A stretch of DNA of 64,000 bases from Chitinophaga pinensis (lineage in GTDB: Bacteria; Bacteroidota; Bacteroidia; UKL13-3): positions 772,294-836,293 of the forward strand of contig CAMARW010000001.1 of NCBI GenBank assembly GCA_945860865.1. Direction: 5' to 3'. The notes beneath the pieces are model-generated. The model saw nothing but the letters and a program-made list of their open reading frames with translations. It did no database searches and was not told where the DNA came from. This document shows positions 6,713-49,852 of this stretch, one piece after another. How positions within the stretch are numbered: position 1 is the stretch's first letter; the number at the start of each line of letters is the position of its first letter. The translations under genes and the position numbers were made by a program.

Positions 6713-6720
6713 TATTTTTG
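6713..6720 (+). promoter_or_regulatory. -7 box 4 nt before a start codon
   Basis: TATTTTTG matches the Bacteroidota -7 consensus TAnnTTTG and lies 4 nt before the ATG at 6725, which would give a leaderless or nearly leaderless mRNA. I see no good -33 TTTG at the expected distance, so the call is tentative. Confidence 0.45.
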
Positions 6721-6724
6721 TGGC

Positions 6725-7660
6725 ATGGAAAGCGAAGATAAAAAAAACAGAAAGTACCGCCTAATCATTATTTTTCAAACAGTACTCAATATATTGTTGA
6801 TGATGTTATTGGGTTTTTTTACGTTTAATTATTTTAAAACTGATAAAAAATTAGCCTTTAAAGAGGTTGAATTGTTTCAATCAGATTCGGCTCGCGCAGA
6901 ATTAGAAACTGTTTTAAATGAAACCGCATTAGAGCTTACCGAATACAAAGGGAAAAATGCAGAGTTAGATCAATTTTTAAAAGAGAAAAATGATTCATTG
7001 CAATTATTTGCCGAAAGAATAGAGAAGATTTTACGGAGTGGTAACCTAACCAAGCAAGAATTAGAAAAAGCGCAGGACGAATTAGATTTGTTGCGTTACT
7101 ACAAACGAAAGTATATTGGGCAAATAGATTCATTAAACACTGTTATTTTTGCTTTAAATACTGAAAATAAAACCCTAAAAACGGATATAGATAAGCAGAA
7201 GCGGAAAAATGAAAACCTTAATATGGATATTTCAAGGTTAAGCAACAAAGTGGCTATAGGAGCTAAATTGAATGCTGAAAATATTTTTGTAACAGGTGTT
7301 AAATTAAGAACTAATGGCAAAGAAAAAGAAACCATTAGGGTAAGCCAATTGGAGCAACTAAAGCTTACTTTTAAATTAAATGAAAACTATGTAAGCGATC
7401 AGGGCAAAAAAGAGATTTTCCTCAAAATAGTAGGTTCAGATGGTGCTACGGTATATAATCAAGCTGCGGGTTCTGGCACTTTCCAATATCAAAATGAAGA
7501 GTCTTTGTATAGTGCTAAAAAAATGATTGAGTTTAAATCAGAGGCACAAATGGTAAGTATTTATTGGGATAAAGGAAGCCCGTTTGCTAAAGGAAATTAC
7601 AAAGCAGAATTGTATTGCGAAGGTTTCAAAATTGGTGTAACCGAGTTTGAATTGAAATAA
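6725..7660 (+). CDS. membrane-anchored coiled-coil protein
   Basis: A 311-residue protein with a short basic cytoplasmic N-terminus, one membrane helix (IIIFQTVLNILLMMLLGFFTFNYF, about residues 13-36) and then a long periplasmic coiled coil (about 45-170) rich in Glu, Lys and Leu. A compact C-terminal domain of about 130 residues looks beta-rich. I do not recognise a named family; similar helix plus coiled-coil plus small beta domain proteins occur widely in Bacteroidota without known function. The frame is open from 6677, but ATG 6725 removes a non-conserved-looking hydrophobic stretch and fits the -7 box just before it. Confidence 0.75.
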   Translation: MESEDKKNRKYRLIIIFQTVLNILLMMLLGFFTFNYFKTDKKLAFKEVELFQSDSARAELETVLNETALELTEYKGKNAELDQFLKEKNDSLQLFAERIEKILRSGNLTKQELEKAQDELDLLRYYKRKYIGQIDSLNTVIFALNTENKTLKTDIDKQKRKNENLNMDISRLSNKVAIGAKLNAENIFVTGVKLRTNGKEKETIRVSQLEQLKLTFKLNENYVSDQGKKEIFLKIVGSDGATVYNQAAGSGTFQYQNEESLYSAKKMIEFKSEAQMVSIYWDKGSPFAKGNYKAELYCEGFKIGVTEFELK

Positions 7661-8463: not shown

Positions 8464-8494
8464 TTTGGATACCTAAGAGTTTTAGGTATTTTTG
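8464..8494 (+). promoter_or_regulatory. padR promoter with inverted-repeat operator
   Basis: TTTG (8464-8467), exactly 19 nt, then TATTTTTG (8487-8494): a full match to the Bacteroidota promoter. An exact inverted repeat ATACCTAA-N5-TTAGGTAT (8469-8476 / 8482-8489) fills the spacer and overlaps the -7 box. PadR repressors usually bind such short dyads in their own promoters, so this is a likely autoregulatory operator. The ATG follows the -7 box after 4 nt. Confidence 0.7.
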
Positions 8495-8498
8495 TGCT

Positions 8499-8849
8499 AT
8501 GTATTCATCAGAACTTATAAAAGGCACGTTAAAAACAATCATTTTAAAATTGCTAAAGAACAATGGCAAAATGTATGGTTATGAAATTACACAACGCGTA
8601 AAGGAGTTAACAAACAACAAAATTCAGATTACAGAAGGCGCCCTGTATCCTACTCTTCACTTGCTCGAGAAAGAGGGAGAGGTAGAGGCTGAAACGGAGA
8701 CTATTGGAAAGCGGGTTCGTAAATATTATACGATTACGCCCAAGGGAAAAGTTACAGTAGATTTAAAGGTAAATGAGTTTGTGGATTTTATGAACACCAT
8801 GAAATTTTTGTTAGACTTTGAGTTAGATGTAGGTCATGCAGCTAAGTGA
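8499..8849 (+). CDS. PadR family transcriptional regulator
   Basis: A 116-residue PadR-type regulator. The winged helix-turn-helix spans about residues 8-85 with the family patterns LILKLL, MYGYEIT, ITEGALYPTLHLLEKEG and KRVRKYYTITPKG; the C-terminal helix would form the dimer. It is a member of the short PadR subfamily-1. Its stop overlaps the start of the next gene by 14 bp, so the regulator and the membrane protein are one operon, a common arrangement where PadR controls an adjacent membrane gene. An inverted repeat in the promoter suggests autoregulation. Confidence 0.92.
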   Translation: MYSSELIKGTLKTIILKLLKNNGKMYGYEITQRVKELTNNKIQITEGALYPTLHLLEKEGEVEAETETIGKRVRKYYTITPKGKVTVDLKVNEFVDFMNTMKFLLDFELDVGHAAK

Positions 8850-12778: not shown

Positions 12779-13294
12779 TTAATAAACCAATTTATTTGGC
12801 TTAAAAAAGCCTTTCCATTTTTTGGCGTAAGGTGCAAAATCTTTGCCTGGCCTAGGGTGAATGTAGCCATCAAAAGTAATGAGCCAGGTATTACCTCTGA
12901 TGCGTTTGCCAGTAATTGTTCCATCTGCAAGTTGGCGCGGACCAGCATCTGGGCAAAAGCAGCTGCGGTTGTAAATTACTTTGTGCTTTTCAAAATCGCC
13001 CTCTTTAATGGTAAAGCGGTTTCCTTTGGGTGGGTCTATCTCAAATTCATAGGATTCAAAATACTCATCGTCGGATACCATAGGATACTCTGCAAATTGA
13101 TGCGAAAATTTAAACACCCATTTGATGCCCTTATCATAGGCAATATCAAAGTAAATGCTATCATAAATTTGCTTGCTTATGCTCGAATTATCTTGGTAAA
13201 CAAAGCGTTTTATTTCAGGGTTTTGTTTAGGTTTCTCCTGGGCTTGAACAATAAACGACAACAAAATAAAGAGTATACTAAAGATGTTTTTCAT
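12779..13294 (-). CDS. secreted protein of unknown function
   Basis: A 171-residue protein with a signal peptide (MKNIFSILFILLSFIVQAQ). The mature part is beta-rich, with a CFC motif (SCFCPDAGPRQLADGTITG) about two thirds along and a conserved-looking end (WKGFFKPNKLVY). I know no family name. Because of the signal peptide it should be periplasmic or surface exposed. A TACATTCG sequence (13300-13307, minus strand) lies 5 nt before the ATG and may be its -7 box. The spacer to the divergent glycosyltransferase gene carries a repeat array. Confidence 0.72.
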   Translation of the reverse strand: MKNIFSILFILLSFIVQAQEKPKQNPEIKRFVYQDNSSISKQIYDSIYFDIAYDKGIKWVFKFSHQFAEYPMVSDDEYFESYEFEIDPPKGNRFTIKEGDFEKHKVIYNRSCFCPDAGPRQLADGTITGKRIRGNTWLITFDGYIHPRPGKDFAPYAKKWKGFFKPNKLVY

Positions 13295-13314
13295 GCAAAC
13301 GAATGTAGGGAAAA

Positions 13315-13440
13315 TAATAATTACGAATTACGAATTAAAAATTACGAATTAAAAATCTCTCCAACTCGTAACTCGTAATTCGTAATTCGTAATTTTTAAT
13401 TCGTAATTCGTAATTTTTAATTCGTAATTCGTAATTTTAA
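13315..13440. repeat. ATTACGAATT / AATTCGTAAT inverted-repeat array
   Basis: The 7-nt word AATTCGT and its complement ACGAATT are repeated about a dozen times, with the ACGAATT orientation on the left (13315-13357) and the AATTCGT orientation on the right (13373-13437). The arms can fold into a long imperfect hairpin around TCTCTCCAACTCGTAACTC. A second copy is at 38327. It lies between divergent genes, so it is not simply a terminator. Confidence 0.85.
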
Positions 13441-16609: not shown

Positions 16610-17899
16610 TTATTTCTTTAACGTATGGTAAGCCCTCAAAAATTCATTTGGGTTTAAACCGTATTGTTTTACGCGGCGGTGTTTGCCCAAATACAAGTAT
16701 TGCGGCAAACTGTTTACGCCTAATTTATTGCTTAATTCTTTGGTGCCAAATACTAGGTTATAATTGGGTAATGCCTCGCTATTAAAAATGCGCAACTCGT
16801 AGCTTTTGCCCACGTATAAAACACAAATAACCTTTAATTTATCGGGGTTTAACTGGGCAATTTGGCGCAATAACATCGTGTCGGAAACAAAGTTTTTAGA
16901 ACTTTTATTGCCAAAATATAGATAAACCTCTTTGCGCTTAAATTTGCTTATTTTAAATGAATTTCCCTTAACAGGGCTTAGCTTTACTTTGGGTACTTTT
17001 TTGCCTATGGCTATGCGGTTAAAGTTTACCTCCTCTTTACTTTCTTGAATATGAATAAATTTACCAGCAGGATCTGCCAAGATAATCTTGTAAAGCTTAT
17101 CATTTTTTTCGAAATAGGTATTTTGTCCATCTTTAGCAAAAGTTACATAGTGGAGCGGGTTGGTGGCATCTAAGATAGAATCTGTAGGGTTTACAAAAAG
17201 CACTTTATCTATGGCTGCATCATTGTATAAGCCATTAGCATTGGCATCCAATAAAGCTATTTTAAAACGCTCTTTCCCTAACATTACCATTCCTTCGCGG
17301 GCAATGTATCTTTGCTCGCGGTAGCAAAACTCATTGGCTATAGATATTCTGTCTTTGTAGGTCATGGCATAATATTCATCCATGTATTTCCTAAACTCAT
17401 ATTTTTGGCCATATGGCCGCGTTCTCGATAATAAGATTTTGATTCTTCCATCCTTATTTTGGGCATTCATAAGCTCCACTTCCAAAGGTTTTTCGTCAAA
17501 ATAGGGTAGACGGTAACTGCTATCGTCGCTAAAATCAAAGTTTTGGTTATGGTCTATATACAAAGTTGGATTCCTTTGGTAAGGGTCGCCCACCAAAACG
17601 CTCACATAGCCTGGGTTATAGTTATTTTTACTACCGCTAAAAAATAAATTTCCGTAAGCAAATTCTTTGTGTTTGCCCGTTTTTTTTATCCTAATAATTT
17701 GAACAGGTCGCGTTCCCTCAAAGTCCATAGAAAGTATGGTATCGCCTTTTACTTTAAATAGGGCAAGGGTAAGTTGGTATTTATCGAACCGATCGTCTTT
17801 GGCATATTGAGCAAGCGGCACCTCAATGGTGTTGTTATTTTGGGCTGAACCCGCCAATGCAAACAAAAAAAAGGCAGGTAAAAAGAAATAGTTCTTCAT
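16610..17899 (-). CDS. secreted protein with cysteine-less thioredoxin-like C-terminus
   Basis: A 429-residue protein with a signal peptide (cut after GSAQ). Residues about 20-305 are beta-rich with calcium-site-like stretches (DHNQNFDFSDD, DANANGLYND). Residues about 315-429 look like a TlpA/thioredoxin fold: a hydrophobic strand KEVYLYFG, then NKSSKNFVSD where CxxC would stand, and the LGVNSLPQYLYL loop with the cis-proline. With no CxxC it cannot be a thiol oxidoreductase, so the domain may bind something instead. Function unknown. TATTTTCG on the minus strand (17906-17913) lies 6 nt before the ATG. Confidence 0.75.
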   Translation of the reverse strand: MKNYFFLPAFFLFALAGSAQNNNTIEVPLAQYAKDDRFDKYQLTLALFKVKGDTILSMDFEGTRPVQIIRIKKTGKHKEFAYGNLFFSGSKNNYNPGYVSVLVGDPYQRNPTLYIDHNQNFDFSDDSSYRLPYFDEKPLEVELMNAQNKDGRIKILLSRTRPYGQKYEFRKYMDEYYAMTYKDRISIANEFCYREQRYIAREGMVMLGKERFKIALLDANANGLYNDAAIDKVLFVNPTDSILDATNPLHYVTFAKDGQNTYFEKNDKLYKIILADPAGKFIHIQESKEEVNFNRIAIGKKVPKVKLSPVKGNSFKISKFKRKEVYLYFGNKSSKNFVSDTMLLRQIAQLNPDKLKVICVLYVGKSYELRIFNSEALPNYNLVFGTKELSNKLGVNSLPQYLYLGKHRRVKQYGLNPNEFLRAYHTLKK

Positions 17900-17944
17900 A
17901 CCTGCCGAAAATACAAATATTTTGTGTTTTACAGATTTATTTTC

Positions 17945-32114: not shown

Positions 32115-32837
32115 TTAGAATATAAAACCAATATTTAAACCAATACCATTATTATTGGCAGTCCATTTATTTTCGCTCAACAAATCTGTTAAACCCATAT
32201 GATAGCGAATGCCTAACTCTATTCTAGAGCTATTTTGAAGGTGAAAATTTACACCTCCCCCAAACATTAATCCTGCCCTAACCTTATTGGCTGTTATAGC
32301 GTAACTATCTTCATTTTTTGTGCTTTTTAGTTCAAATACATCTTCTTCATCTGGCTCTGCGAAATTGATATTTTCTTTATTATAACTATTAGAATTTACA
32401 TCACCTTTTTGTTTAAGCAGCAACCCAAAAGATGCACCAAACTCGCCGTAAAACGACCTGTTTTCCTCCCTTACCGTGTGCATTTTAATAAAGAAAGGAA
32501 TATCAATGTATTGCAAATTATAGGTAATGCTAAAATTGCTGAGGGTATCGTTGATGCCATGATGCCTTACCACAACATTTTCTGCTTTTACTTGCGCACC
32601 AATATTTTGCAAGTTTATTTCGAATCCAAGTGCATATTTGGCTCCAATATTATAATTTATTTTAGCTCCAAAGCCAAAAGAAGGAGAGGCGCTACCATTG
32701 CTAATAGCTTTATTGCTTGGTGATATCCAGCTAATAAAAGGAGTGGTTCCTAAACCAAATTCAATTTTACTTTCTTGGGCAATTAAGTTGCCTCCAAATA
32801 ATATGAGTATGAATGCCGAAAATAATTTTTGTTTCAT
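32115..32837 (-). CDS. outer-membrane beta-barrel protein
   Basis: A 240-residue porin-family protein: signal peptide (MKQKLFSAFILILFGGNLIAQ) and a barrel of eight or so strands (for example SFGFGAKINYNIGAKYALGFEINLQNIGA, SFYGEFGASFGLLLK, VRAGLMFGGGVNFHL) ending in GLNIGFIF, the terminal Phe usual for barrels. The frame is open from 32897, but ATG 32837 gives the signal peptide. It is 10 bp upstream of nadE on the same strand. It has a perfect TTTG-N20-TAAATTTG promoter. No specific function assigned. Confidence 0.82.
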   Translation of the reverse strand: MKQKLFSAFILILFGGNLIAQESKIEFGLGTTPFISWISPSNKAISNGSASPSFGFGAKINYNIGAKYALGFEINLQNIGAQVKAENVVVRHHGINDTLSNFSITYNLQYIDIPFFIKMHTVREENRSFYGEFGASFGLLLKQKGDVNSNSYNKENINFAEPDEEDVFELKSTKNEDSYAITANKVRAGLMFGGGVNFHLQNSSRIELGIRYHMGLTDLLSENKWTANNNGIGLNIGFIF

Positions 32838-32857
32838 AATATGAATTGATTTGATTT

Positions 32858-32889
32858 CAAATTTAGTTGCAAATGCAGATATTGCCAAA
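32858..32889 (-). promoter_or_regulatory. promoter of the beta-barrel gene and nadE
   Basis: On the minus strand: TTTG (32886-32889), 20 nt, then TAAATTTG (32858-32865), a full consensus match 20 nt before the ATG at 32837. Confidence 0.65.
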
Positions 32890-32922
32890 AGTTTCATTAC
32901 AAAATTAGCCTAATAAATTAAT

Positions 32923-37821: not shown

Positions 37822-37852
37822 TTTGCAAAAATGAGGTTTTGACGTAAATTGG
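37822..37852 (+). promoter_or_regulatory. promoter of the DUF2147 gene, leaderless type
   Basis: TTTG (37822-37825), 19 nt, then TAAATTGG (37845-37852), one mismatch to TAnnTTTG. The ATG follows after 4 nt, so the transcript should start at or very near the start codon. Confidence 0.55.
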
Positions 37853-37856
37853 AACC

Positions 37857-38321
37857 ATGAAAAAAAACATATTATTAATTGCTGGAATTTTAATCTCCAG
37901 CCTAACATTTTTTGCCTCAGCCCAGTCGGTTCAGTCAGATGATATCGCCGGACTATGGGAAACAGGAAGCGGCAAAGCCCGCGTTAATATTATTAAATCG
38001 GGTAATTACTTTTATGGCAGAATAGTTTGGTTAAAAGAACCCTTAAATGAGCAAGGAAAGCCAAAAGTTGACAAAAACAATCCTGATGAAACCAAGAGAA
38101 GTACCCCGCTTTTAGGCTACCGCATGCTAAGTAGCTTCGAATACAAAGGCGATAACCTTTGGGAAGATGGCACTATTTACGACCCAGAAAGTGGCAGTAC
38201 TTATAGCTGTAAAATAACCATGGATGATAAAAATACCATGAATATTAGAGGTTTTATTGGCATTGCCGCCTTCGGTAGAACCGATGTGTGGAAACGCTTA
38301 CAAATGAAAAAGAAGAAGTAA
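37857..38321 (+). CDS. DUF2147 domain-containing protein
   Basis: A 154-residue secreted protein with a signal peptide (cut after ASAQ, residue 23) and a single DUF2147 domain: DIAGLWETGSGKARVNIIKSGNYFYGRIVWL, LLGYRMLSSFEYKGDNLWEDGTIYDPESGSTYSCKI, and the end RGFIGIAAFGRTDVWKR. The family is a small beta-barrel with lipocalin-like shape, periplasmic, and its ligand is unknown. It stands alone; a repeat hairpin begins 5 bp after its stop. Confidence 0.92.
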   Translation: MKKNILLIAGILISSLTFFASAQSVQSDDIAGLWETGSGKARVNIIKSGNYFYGRIVWLKEPLNEQGKPKVDKNNPDETKRSTPLLGYRMLSSFEYKGDNLWEDGTIYDPESGSTYSCKITMDDKNTMNIRGFIGIAAFGRTDVWKRLQMKKKK

Positions 38322-38325
38322 AAAA

Positions 38326-38399
38326 AATTACGAATTACGAATTACGAATTACGATTATCGAATTCGTAATTTTTAATTCGTAATTCGTAATTAAAATTA
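38326..38399. repeat. ATTACGAATT / AATTCGTAAT inverted repeat, second copy
   Basis: Same word set as the array at 13315: ACGAATT repeats on the left, AATTCGT repeats on the right, meeting near ATTATCGAATTCG. It fills the whole space between two convergent genes and could form a long hairpin that stops transcription from both sides. The TTA of the next gene's stop codon overlaps its right end. Confidence 0.85.
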
Positions 38400-47096: not shown

Positions 47097-48043
47097 TGTG
47101 CAAAAATGAGCAGAAACATAAATATATACCCATGCCAAATTATTCTGCCATCTGCCACGGTTGTTAAAAAACTAAAAACATATAAAGCAAAAACACCAAA
47201 CAAGCCTCCCAAAGCAGCAAAGTGTATATTGCTATTTAAGAAGTTTGCTTTGTTTTTTATAAGGGCTCTCGTTAACAAGACTCCGGGCAAACCTAAACTA
47301 AGCAAAAACGAAAGCAGGGTATGTGGTCTTTGTAAATTGTTTTGCGCTGCACCCCAATTAAATTGCAAAGGTTTAAAACGCATTTCGCCTGGCGTAAGCG
47401 GCGCATATAATTGGATAAGATAGTGCAAGAAAAAAAATAGGATCAGACCAAAGAATAATACTGTTAAATGGCGGTATTGCTTTTCTTTAATTGTCCAAGC
47501 CATGGCAAACGGAAACAAAACGATGCTGGTTTCTTTGGCCAGCAATCCCAATAAAACCACTAAGCTAAATACTACATATTTTTTCTGAAGCCAAGCATAT
47601 ACGCCCATTGATACAAATAGAATGGCTCCTGCATCTACGTAACTTATACACGTGTAATAAAAAGTGGGGAAAGAAAATATGCCTATGAAAACCGCCCACC
47701 AGCGCTGTTTTGGATCTACTCCAATGTGTTTTAAAATAGCATATAAAAAGTATAAACTTAGGGCAATGCAAAAGAAGTTTATGAGGTTCAAACTGGTATC
47801 GGGTGCAAAGGGTAGGGGAGCCGCTAACAAGGGCAATAAAAAGCGGCAATTGCTCATGGGCCTGATGGGGGCGGCAGGTGTTTCTCCCCTAAAATATTGC
47901 ACATAAGCGTTAAAATATTGTGCATCCCAAGGTGTTTGTTGAACCCAAGTTTGGTTGCCATTAAAACGGGGCAAGCAAACTAAAATTAAGCTTACAAAGG
48001 CCACTGCCAAAAGTATTTTTTCTGAACCTAATTTAAGCTTCAT
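47045..48043 (-). CDS. polytopic membrane protein
   Basis: A 332-residue protein with about nine membrane helices and a first extracytoplasmic loop (about 28-80) containing QTPWDAQYFNAYVQYFRGE and PIRPMSNCRFLLPLL. The layout (helix, long periplasmic loop with an acidic residue, many helices) recalls GT-C glycosyltransferases or DUF2029-type mannosyltransferases, but no clear motif confirms it. The C-terminal TTKELRNEGNMFS is encoded by an inverted repeat, so the natural end may have been replaced. Its start overlaps the 3' end of uvrC by 11 bp. Confidence 0.7.
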   Translation of the reverse strand: MKLKLGSEKILLAVAFVSLILVCLPRFNGNQTWVQQTPWDAQYFNAYVQYFRGETPAAPIRPMSNCRFLLPLLAAPLPFAPDTSLNLINFFCIALSLYFLYAILKHIGVDPKQRWWAVFIGIFSFPTFYYTCISYVDAGAILFVSMGVYAWLQKKYVVFSLVVLLGLLAKETSIVLFPFAMAWTIKEKQYRHLTVLFFGLILFFFLHYLIQLYAPLTPGEMRFKPLQFNWGAAQNNLQRPHTLLSFLLSLGLPGVLLTRALIKNKANFLNSNIHFAALGGLFGVFALYVFSFLTTVADGRIIWHGYIFMFLLIFAQKRLTTKELRNEGNMFS

Positions 48044-49841
48044 CTTGCGGGTGAAAATGATTGTAAACTATTTTGGCCTTGGCTGCTCCAATTATTTTTT
48101 CTAAACTTTGTAGGCTACTTTCTTTTATTTTTTTAACACTTTTTAAACTCTGTAATAATAGATCTCTATTGGCCGAACCAATGCCTTTGATGCTGGATAA
48201 ATCGCTAACGAGTGTATTTTTACTACGCCTATTTCTGTGGTGTGTAATGCCAAAACGGTGAGCCTCATCGCGCAATTGTTGGATGATTTTTAAGGTCTCC
48301 GATTTCTTATCTAAGTACAACGGAAATTCATCTTCAGGGTAATATAATTCTTCTAACCTTTTAGCAATGCCAATAATCGGTATTTGGCCATATAAATTTA
48401 GTTCTTTTAAGCTCTCTACAGCCGAGCTTAATTGCCCCTTTCCGCCATCTACAATAATGAGATTTGGCAGGGTTTCATTGTTTTCTAACAAGCCCCTATA
48501 CCGTCTAAAAACAACTTCGCGCATGGTGGCAAAATCATCTGGACCAACAACTGTTTTGGGCATAAAATGGCGGTAATCTTTTTTGCTTGGCTTAGCATCT
48601 TTAAAAACCACGCAGGCCGAAACCGGATTGGTGCCTTGCAGGTTAGAGTTATCAAAACATTCTATGTGTTTGGGTAAATCTTTTAACCGCAGGTCTTTTT
48701 GCATCTGACTTAATATCCTATCTACTTTTAAATCGGGGTTTAATAATTCATACTGCGTAAGTTTATCGCGCTTGTAATACATGGCATTCTTCATCGACAA
48801 ATCGAGCAATTTCTTTTTGTCGCCCAACTTTGGAACAGTAATTACTAAGCCAGAATCTTCCCAATCTAGCGCTATAGGAACAATGATTTCATTGGATCGA
48901 GATTGATATTTTTCGCGCACTTCGGCAATGGCTAAACTTAGCAATTCTTCGTCGGTTTCATCCAGCTTTTTCTTGAGTTCAAAAGTTTGCGTTTGCACAA
49001 TTATACCATTCGAAACCTTAAGATAATTACTAAACGCAAATCGCTCATCGCTTACAATACTAAACACATCTACATCATGCTTAATATCGTTTACAATGGT
49101 AGATTTACTCTGGTAATTCTCTAGCAAAGTTAATTTCTGTTTGAACCTATCGGCTGTTTCAAAAGCTAAATTATCGGCGGCTGCCAGCATTTGCTCTCTG
49201 AGTTCGGCGCGCAATTCTGTTAAATTTCCTTTGAGTATTTTCTTTACAGCTAAAATGGTTTGGTGGTAATCTTCCTCTGTTTGCTTGCCAACGCAGGGTG
49301 CCATGCAATTGCCTATATCAAATTCTAAGCAGGCTTTAAATTTTTTGTTGGCAATGTTTTCTTTGCTTAGGTTGTAATTACAATTTCTGAGCGGAAACCC
49401 TGCTCGTATAAGCTCTAACAAGGTGTATTTTAAATAGCTATTGGCATAGGGGCCATAATATTCGCTGCCGTCTCTTTCTAGCGTTCGGGTAGAAACAACC
49501 CTCGGGAAACGCTCGTTTTTTATACAAATAGAGGCATAGGTTTTGTCGTCTTTTAATAATATGTTAAACCTAGGCTTGTATTGCTTTATAAGCACGTTCT
49601 CTAACAAGAGTGCGTCCATTTCTGTTTCAACCAAGGTATATTGAATGGCTGCAATTCTGCTCACCAAAATGGCCGTTTTTTTATTATCGAAATGTTTATT
49701 TACAAAGTAACTGGTAACTCTTTTCTTTAAGCTTTTTGCTTTGCCAATGTAAATAATCTGTTGCTGGTCGTCTAGGTATTTATATACACCCGGCGAATCT
49801 GGTAAACCTTTTATAGTATCTTTTAAATGCAGAAATGGCAT
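48033..49841 (-). CDS. uvrC: excinuclease ABC subunit C
   Basis: Makes both incisions in nucleotide excision repair. 602 residues: GIY-YIG domain (LPDSPGVYKYLDD, IIYIGKAKSLKKRV, about 10-90), UVR motif (about 200-235), RNase-H-like domain with ECFDNSNLQGTNPVSA and IIVDGGKGQL (Asp ligands), and C-terminal helix-hairpin-helix (SSIKGIGSANRDLLLQSL). ATG 49841 is preferred over the TTG at 49847, which lies inside a full -7 box (TATGTTTG, 49845-49852, minus strand) only 3 nt before the ATG, suggesting a leaderless mRNA. Confidence 0.96.
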   Translation of the reverse strand: MPFLHLKDTIKGLPDSPGVYKYLDDQQQIIYIGKAKSLKKRVTSYFVNKHFDNKKTAILVSRIAAIQYTLVETEMDALLLENVLIKQYKPRFNILLKDDKTYASICIKNERFPRVVSTRTLERDGSEYYGPYANSYLKYTLLELIRAGFPLRNCNYNLSKENIANKKFKACLEFDIGNCMAPCVGKQTEEDYHQTILAVKKILKGNLTELRAELREQMLAAADNLAFETADRFKQKLTLLENYQSKSTIVNDIKHDVDVFSIVSDERFAFSNYLKVSNGIIVQTQTFELKKKLDETDEELLSLAIAEVREKYQSRSNEIIVPIALDWEDSGLVITVPKLGDKKKLLDLSMKNAMYYKRDKLTQYELLNPDLKVDRILSQMQKDLRLKDLPKHIECFDNSNLQGTNPVSACVVFKDAKPSKKDYRHFMPKTVVGPDDFATMREVVFRRYRGLLENNETLPNLIIVDGGKGQLSSAVESLKELNLYGQIPIIGIAKRLEELYYPEDEFPLYLDKKSETLKIIQQLRDEAHRFGITHHRNRRSKNTLVSDLSSIKGIGSANRDLLLQSLKSVKKIKESSLQSLEKIIGAAKAKIVYNHFHPQDEA

Positions 49842-49844
49842 AAG

Positions 49845-49852
49845 CAAACATA
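49845..49852 (-). promoter_or_regulatory. uvrC -7 box, 3 nt before the start
   Basis: TATGTTTG on the minus strand matches TAnnTTTG and ends 3 nt before the ATG. No -33 TTG at the standard distance is seen. Confidence 0.4.

Follow-up and report, generated by a model that had tools for sequence, protein, structure and literature searches.

In three Bacteroidota with mapped transcription starts, a minority of the messengers carry little or no leader: leaderless mRNAs amount to 5.5% in Flavobacterium psychrophilum (PMC9723704), mRNAs with a leader of at most 10 nt to 13% in F. johnsoniae (PMC6847099), and those with a 5′ UTR below 10 nt to 3.7% in Bacteroides thetaiotaomicron (PMC7366714). The promoter geometry has also been described: the -7 element of F. 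johnsoniae lies 4-5 nt from the transcription start (PMC6847099) and the -7 box of F. psychrophilum occupies positions -12 to -5 (PMC9723704). Concerning translation, it is known that the anti-Shine-Dalgarno (ASD) sequence is hidden in F. johnsoniae (PMC9976891), and published transcriptomes as well as gene-start programs assume AT-rich, non-Shine-Dalgarno (non-SD) leaders in Bacteroidota, the programs assigning AT-rich, non-SD ribosome-binding sites to the FCB group (PMC9581028). In a survey of 953 genomes, limited to Pribnow-like boxes as the authors state, only one genome among the 37 of Bacteroidetes/Chlorobi was reported to have leaderless genes (Zheng et al., 2011; PMC3160421).

The window analyzed here, a stretch of 64,000 nt, belongs to a Bacteroidota genome of 2.59 Mb in 13 contigs. 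Six of its genes had been proposed to share a -7 box located 3-6 nt before the ATG, and when the positions were rechecked the claimed spacing was found at all six. In front of the DUF2147 gene (37857..38321, plus strand; PF09917, E 7e-35), which is predicted to be leaderless, a -33 element TTTG (37822..37825, plus strand) stands 19 nt before the -7 box TAAATTGG (37845..37852, plus strand), separated from the ATG by the spacer AACC. One and the same octamer, TATTTTTG, lies 4 nt upstream of two other plus-strand genes. At 8487..8494 it precedes the ATG of a PadR-family regulator (8499..8849; PF03551, E 9e-21); 8487, originally given as the position of padR, is where the box begins, the ATG itself being at 8499. 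At 6713..6720 it precedes the gene for a 311-aa protein without Pfam match (6725..7660). On the minus strand, a position check places TATGTTTG (49845..49852) 3 nt upstream of the ATG of uvrC (48033..49841, start at 49841; GIY-YIG, and UvrC_RNaseH_dom with E 6.1e-54). Also on this strand, TACATTCG (13300..13307) lies 5 nt from the ATG of a 171-aa protein (12779..13294), and TATTTTCG (17906..17913), in a 45-nt intergenic gap, 6 nt from that of a 429-aa protein (16610..17899), both proteins presenting a signal-peptide-like N-terminus and no Pfam match. Five of the six boxes match TAnnTTYG; the exception is that of DUF2147, which ends in TTGG, and the proposal of a shared geometry is upheld for the spacing at all six genes and for the motif at five. 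The posterior for a leaderless geometry comes close to certainty at 6725, is practically the same for padR and marginally lower at 13294; for the off-consensus DUF2147 box it is distinctly more modest, still on the favorable side.

Elsewhere in the window, a minus-strand gene (32115-32897) has an ATG at 32897, with TAATTTTG 2 nt upstream, as an alternative to the start picked by the gene finder at 32837, for which the box lies 20 nt upstream. The window also holds intergenic, palindrome-like arrays in which the unit ATTACGA occurs in either orientation (13320-13435 and 38327-38391); 37 arrays with at least two units were counted in the 1.26 Mb read.

Beyond these loci, gene starts were predicted in 61 stretches of the genome (1.264 Mb, about half of it) by a dicodon model blind to upstream signals, and those genes whose ATG is preceded by 60 nt or more of intergenic DNA, 516 in number, were taken as promoter-proximal; d stands for the number of nucleotides between the -7 box and the start codon. 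A raw genome-wide count of TAnnTTYG-N2-7-ATG was rejected as uninformative, since its matches are mostly intragenic and the reversed-pattern control is unmatched in composition. Based on these predicted starts from half of the genome, the histogram of box-to-start distances is not flat. The strict motif TAnnTTTG occurs at d=2-7 in front of 30 of the 516 genes (5.8%), compared with 12 at 8-13 nt, 20 at 14-19 nt and 29 at 20-25 nt. The distances are bimodal: the tallest single bin is d=4 (13 genes), and after a dip a second maximum, of leadered type, follows at 20-25 nt. Column-preserving shuffles, 200 in number, give a mean of 2.2 at d=2-7 and never more than 7, and the mean for ten motifs with permuted letters is 1.9; around non-start ATGs (n=43,059) the box distances are roughly flat. 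The strict box is less frequent, yet not absent, before genes whose gap to the preceding gene on the same strand is shorter than 25 nt (6/207). The promoter element is enriched at the distance that puts +1 on the start codon; indeed, given the box-to-start distances mapped in Flavobacterium, d=4 would therefore place +1 on the A of the ATG.

We then fitted a one-site motif model that took TA..TTTG as its seed and was free to move; it learned T-A-n-n-T-T-T/C-G, that is, the Bacteroidota -7 box TAnnTTTG. By this model about 64 of the 516 genes have their box at d=2-7 (12.5% of the promoter-proximal genes and 18% of the detected promoters), 149 at d=14-31 and 65 at d=32-49, and shuffled upstreams yield 0.3-0.7 genes at d=2-7. 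The 5.8% of the strict motif and the 12.5% of the model bracket the true share only roughly. The original prediction had considered leaderless starts as possibly a main initiation mode, and this did not hold: about 18% of the detected promoters lie at 2-7 nt, as against about 60% at 14-49 nt. Because the model puts most detected promoters at these larger distances, the main mode would be a short leader, and mRNAs predicted to be short-leadered dominate in this genome. Leaderless or near-leaderless initiation appears to be a real but minority mode, concerning about an eighth of the genes that have a promoter of their own. As for the idea that the mRNAs begin at or next to the ATG, a recurrent and conserved box geometry agrees with it, the 5′ ends themselves being inferred from sequence, as are the approximately 24% of detected promoters that would yield leaders below 10 nt. 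With a score threshold, boxes are scarcer before operon-internal genes, at 6 of 226 versus 37 of 567 in this genome (p = 0.036) and at 1 of 214 versus 21 of 479 in three other genomes (p = 0.004). An EM fit made separately for operon-internal genes (0.3 genes) was discarded as not comparable, and strict counts and fixed-threshold scores were used.

The leaderless set, which includes lepA, pth, iPGM, the prolyl- and tyrosyl-tRNA synthetases, lptE and transporters, also differs from the leadered one in its start regions. The A fraction at -14 to -3 is 0.22 in leaderless and 0.51 in leadered genes; the A-rich translation signal of leader type is missing upstream of the leaderless starts. Downstream of the ATG, in turn, A-richness is equal in both sets. 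Moreover, 24 of 47 leaderless genes have a C at position -1, versus 110 of 469 others (p = 1.6e-4), in keeping with a pyrimidine-A start site at a fixed position and transcription beginning exactly on the A; this preference was absent in the three other genomes sampled (G062, G355 and G164). Leadered promoters show a preference for TTG 18-21 nt upstream, which is weak in leaderless ones, and the -33 TTTG at about 19 nt, conserved for DUF2147, shows just a weak enrichment across the leaderless set.

SD-like motifs occur in 3 of the 516 promoter-proximal genes, and an exact-pattern search of the assembly for the 16S 3′ end, GGATCACCTCCTTTCT, found no match. Operon-internal starts of this genome present a mild SD-like excess (14/207, versus 3-7 further upstream), and promoter-proximal starts show none. 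In G164, a genome of family f25, SD-like motifs are over-represented (18/95 operon-internal and 11/110 promoter-proximal genes), and a leaderless peak exists too.

Conservation in orthologues is clearest for uvrC. Among 29 same-family loci with a readable start, 28 carry TAnnTTYG 3-9 nt upstream of it, the chance of a box further upstream being 2.3% per interval examined. The aligned starts are concordant across the family, and the 40 nt upstream of the box mostly show 0.25-0.5 identity per column (21 non-redundant sequences, compared pairwise); the box columns are identical partly because the box served as the alignment anchor. The arrangement is also present in families f2, f4, f5 and f7 of the window's class, in f25, in f17 and in one f24 genome (families are given by code), and the nearest named UvrC relatives are from uncultured Bacteroidota/Sphingobacteriales MAGs. 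For lepA, the geometry was found in 48 of 198 genomes of the window's class, 184 of which show the lepA core, with 12 genomes, five of them from one genus, at the control spacing of 10-14 nt. Most lepA matches lie at d=6-7, corresponding to a leader of 2-3 nt, not zero. In a draw across the phylum, the lepA pattern recurred in 14 genomes of the same class, in 3 of 9 from f25 and in 1 of 16 from f17; it was absent from all 35 f24 and all 64 f18 genomes of that draw. At the level of upstream sequence, the predicted leaderless arrangement is conserved in orthologues of uvrC and lepA. A more general concordance could not be drawn from the promoter-proximal orthologue pairs shared with G062, G355 and G164, which are too few (31, 14 and 10).

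For DUF2147, the box in the four closest relatives is TAAATTGT; the -33 TTTG and TAAATTG are identical, with the same N19, and the spacer is 47-58% and the upstream sequence 26-42% identical. Distant homologues have a box-like sequence about 20-25 nt upstream, that is, a leadered arrangement. This promoter seems to have moved between leaderless and leadered states. It is apparently leaderless in the five closest species and leadered in more distant ones.

Across 296 genomes of the phylum, TAnnTTTG-NNNC-ATG (d=4) was counted against the same pattern with a 12-nt spacing (d=12). The window's class has 1942 occurrences at d=4 versus 888 at d=12, with d=4 higher in 70 of 73 genomes, and f25 has 175 versus 18. 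The corresponding counts are 318 versus 374 in f24, 167 versus 194 in f17 and 169 versus 241 in f18. Besides the window's class, one further family with good sampling, f25, has the d=4 excess, and by these spacing counts it is absent in the two large families f24 and f18. Since these two belong to the same largely SD-less phylum, ASD occlusion alone does not explain the leaderless geometry. In samples of 0.4 Mb each, promoter-proximal genes at d=2-7 amount to 13% in G062 (same family as the window), 15% in G355 (f3) and 15.5% in G164 (f25, 57% G+C). Three individual genomes show a far stronger d=4 excess than that of the window: G178 (44 vs 1), G108 (63 vs 7) and G207 (35 vs 1). It is about an even bet that within Bacteroidota leaderless initiation is a trait of whole clades: one class and a separate family would keep a set of housekeeping genes, uvrC and lepA among them, obligately leaderless or nearly so, an arrangement that would have been lost from large sister families or never been present there.

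Altogether, these data are very probably explained by ordinary sigma-A type promoters whose -7 box stands so near the ATG that the mRNA starts leaderless or near-leaderless. The housekeeping promoter, with its -7 box TAnnTTYG, would adjoin the start codon; transcription would begin on the first base of the ATG or no more than about 3 nt ahead of it, and the ribosome would start on the 5′-terminal AUG of an mRNA devoid of a usable leader, using instead an A-rich leader in most other genes. We infer that the resulting leaderless mRNAs would be translated and that, in line with the mapping in Flavobacterium, RNA polymerase would start 4-5 nt after the box. Against this explanation stand the operon-internal boxes (6/207), the absence of the -1 C preference from the three other genomes, the leadered state of distant DUF2147 homologues and the d=6-7 spacing of lepA.

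Among the alternatives, the one that deserves most attention, while being improbable, is that the promoters are real and the ATGs wrong, translation starting from a downstream codon behind ordinary leaders. Start prediction is indeed uncertain for some genes, several margins being below 1. Nevertheless, a start further downstream would fit poorly or not at all with the N-termini of UvrC, LepA, Pth, iPGM and TyrRS, and the predicted starts of lepA, pth, iPGM, tyrS and uvrC match the known N-termini of these proteins. Furthermore, the concordant uvrC starts, the equal A-richness downstream of the ATG and an excess that peaks at the exact transcription-start distance from the ATGs all speak against misplaced starts.

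Somewhat less probable still is that the TTTG-containing octamer acts in translation, for example as a U-rich S1-type or enhancer site, and not as a promoter. It does adjoin the start codon, and U-rich initiation regions have been proposed for non-SD genes (PMC5397173); however, the same -7 box occurs at 3-7 and at 20-25 nt with one model fitting both, it is rarer before operon-internal genes, and in DUF2147 the -33 TTTG at N19 is conserved together with it. Mere coincidence in an AT-rich genome can hardly be credited. The bare pattern TAnnTTYG-N2-7-ATG is common genome-wide (648 occurrences vs 624 of the reversed pattern), and single cases are for that reason weak evidence, but 30 boxes before true starts versus 2.2 expected, with a flat profile elsewhere, 28 of 29 uvrC loci in the face of a 2.3% chance, and the recurrence of the geometry in a genome of 57% G+C leave little space for it.

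If leaderless initiation is indeed such a clade-level trait, ribosomes that ignore SD sequences would coexist with two distinct initiation routes whose balance differs between clades. Moreover, should at least a tenth of the transcription units be leaderless in a clade-specific manner, a second class would have to be added to models of SD-independent initiation, to expression vectors and to the prediction of starts, and uvrC and lepA would constitute natural test genes for the acceptance of a 5′-terminal AUG by these ribosomes.

The existence of leaderless mRNAs in Bacteroidota was already known. What would be new is a sequence-level case for them in unstudied clades, with a higher estimated share and conserved genes; in the literature we found no description of a leaderless uvrC in Bacteroidota, nor any report of specific genes keeping such an arrangement across genera or families. 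The leaderless genes of Actinobacteria and Deinococcus-Thermus, more abundant at 19-39% of genes, are likewise marked by a promoter element roughly 10 nt before the start codon, which in their case is a sigma-70 Pribnow-like box (PMC3160421). With respect to the Bacteroidota sigma-A promoter (TTTG at -33, TAnnTTTG at -7), the box found here is the same and differs just in its distance from the start codon. The F. psychrophilum SM5 class, TAnnTTGY (PMC9723704), is matched by TAAATTGT of the four closest DUF2147 relatives and not by the window's own box, which ends in GG. Like the three mapped Bacteroidota, the genome studied here combines the -7 box TAnnTTTG with a minority of leaderless or very short-leadered genes; its share, about 18% of detected promoters at d=2-7, compares with 4-13% in those species, the former being a sequence-only estimate and the latter start-site mapping, two different methods. 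Unlike what is described for them, here specific genes retain the arrangement across genera and families.
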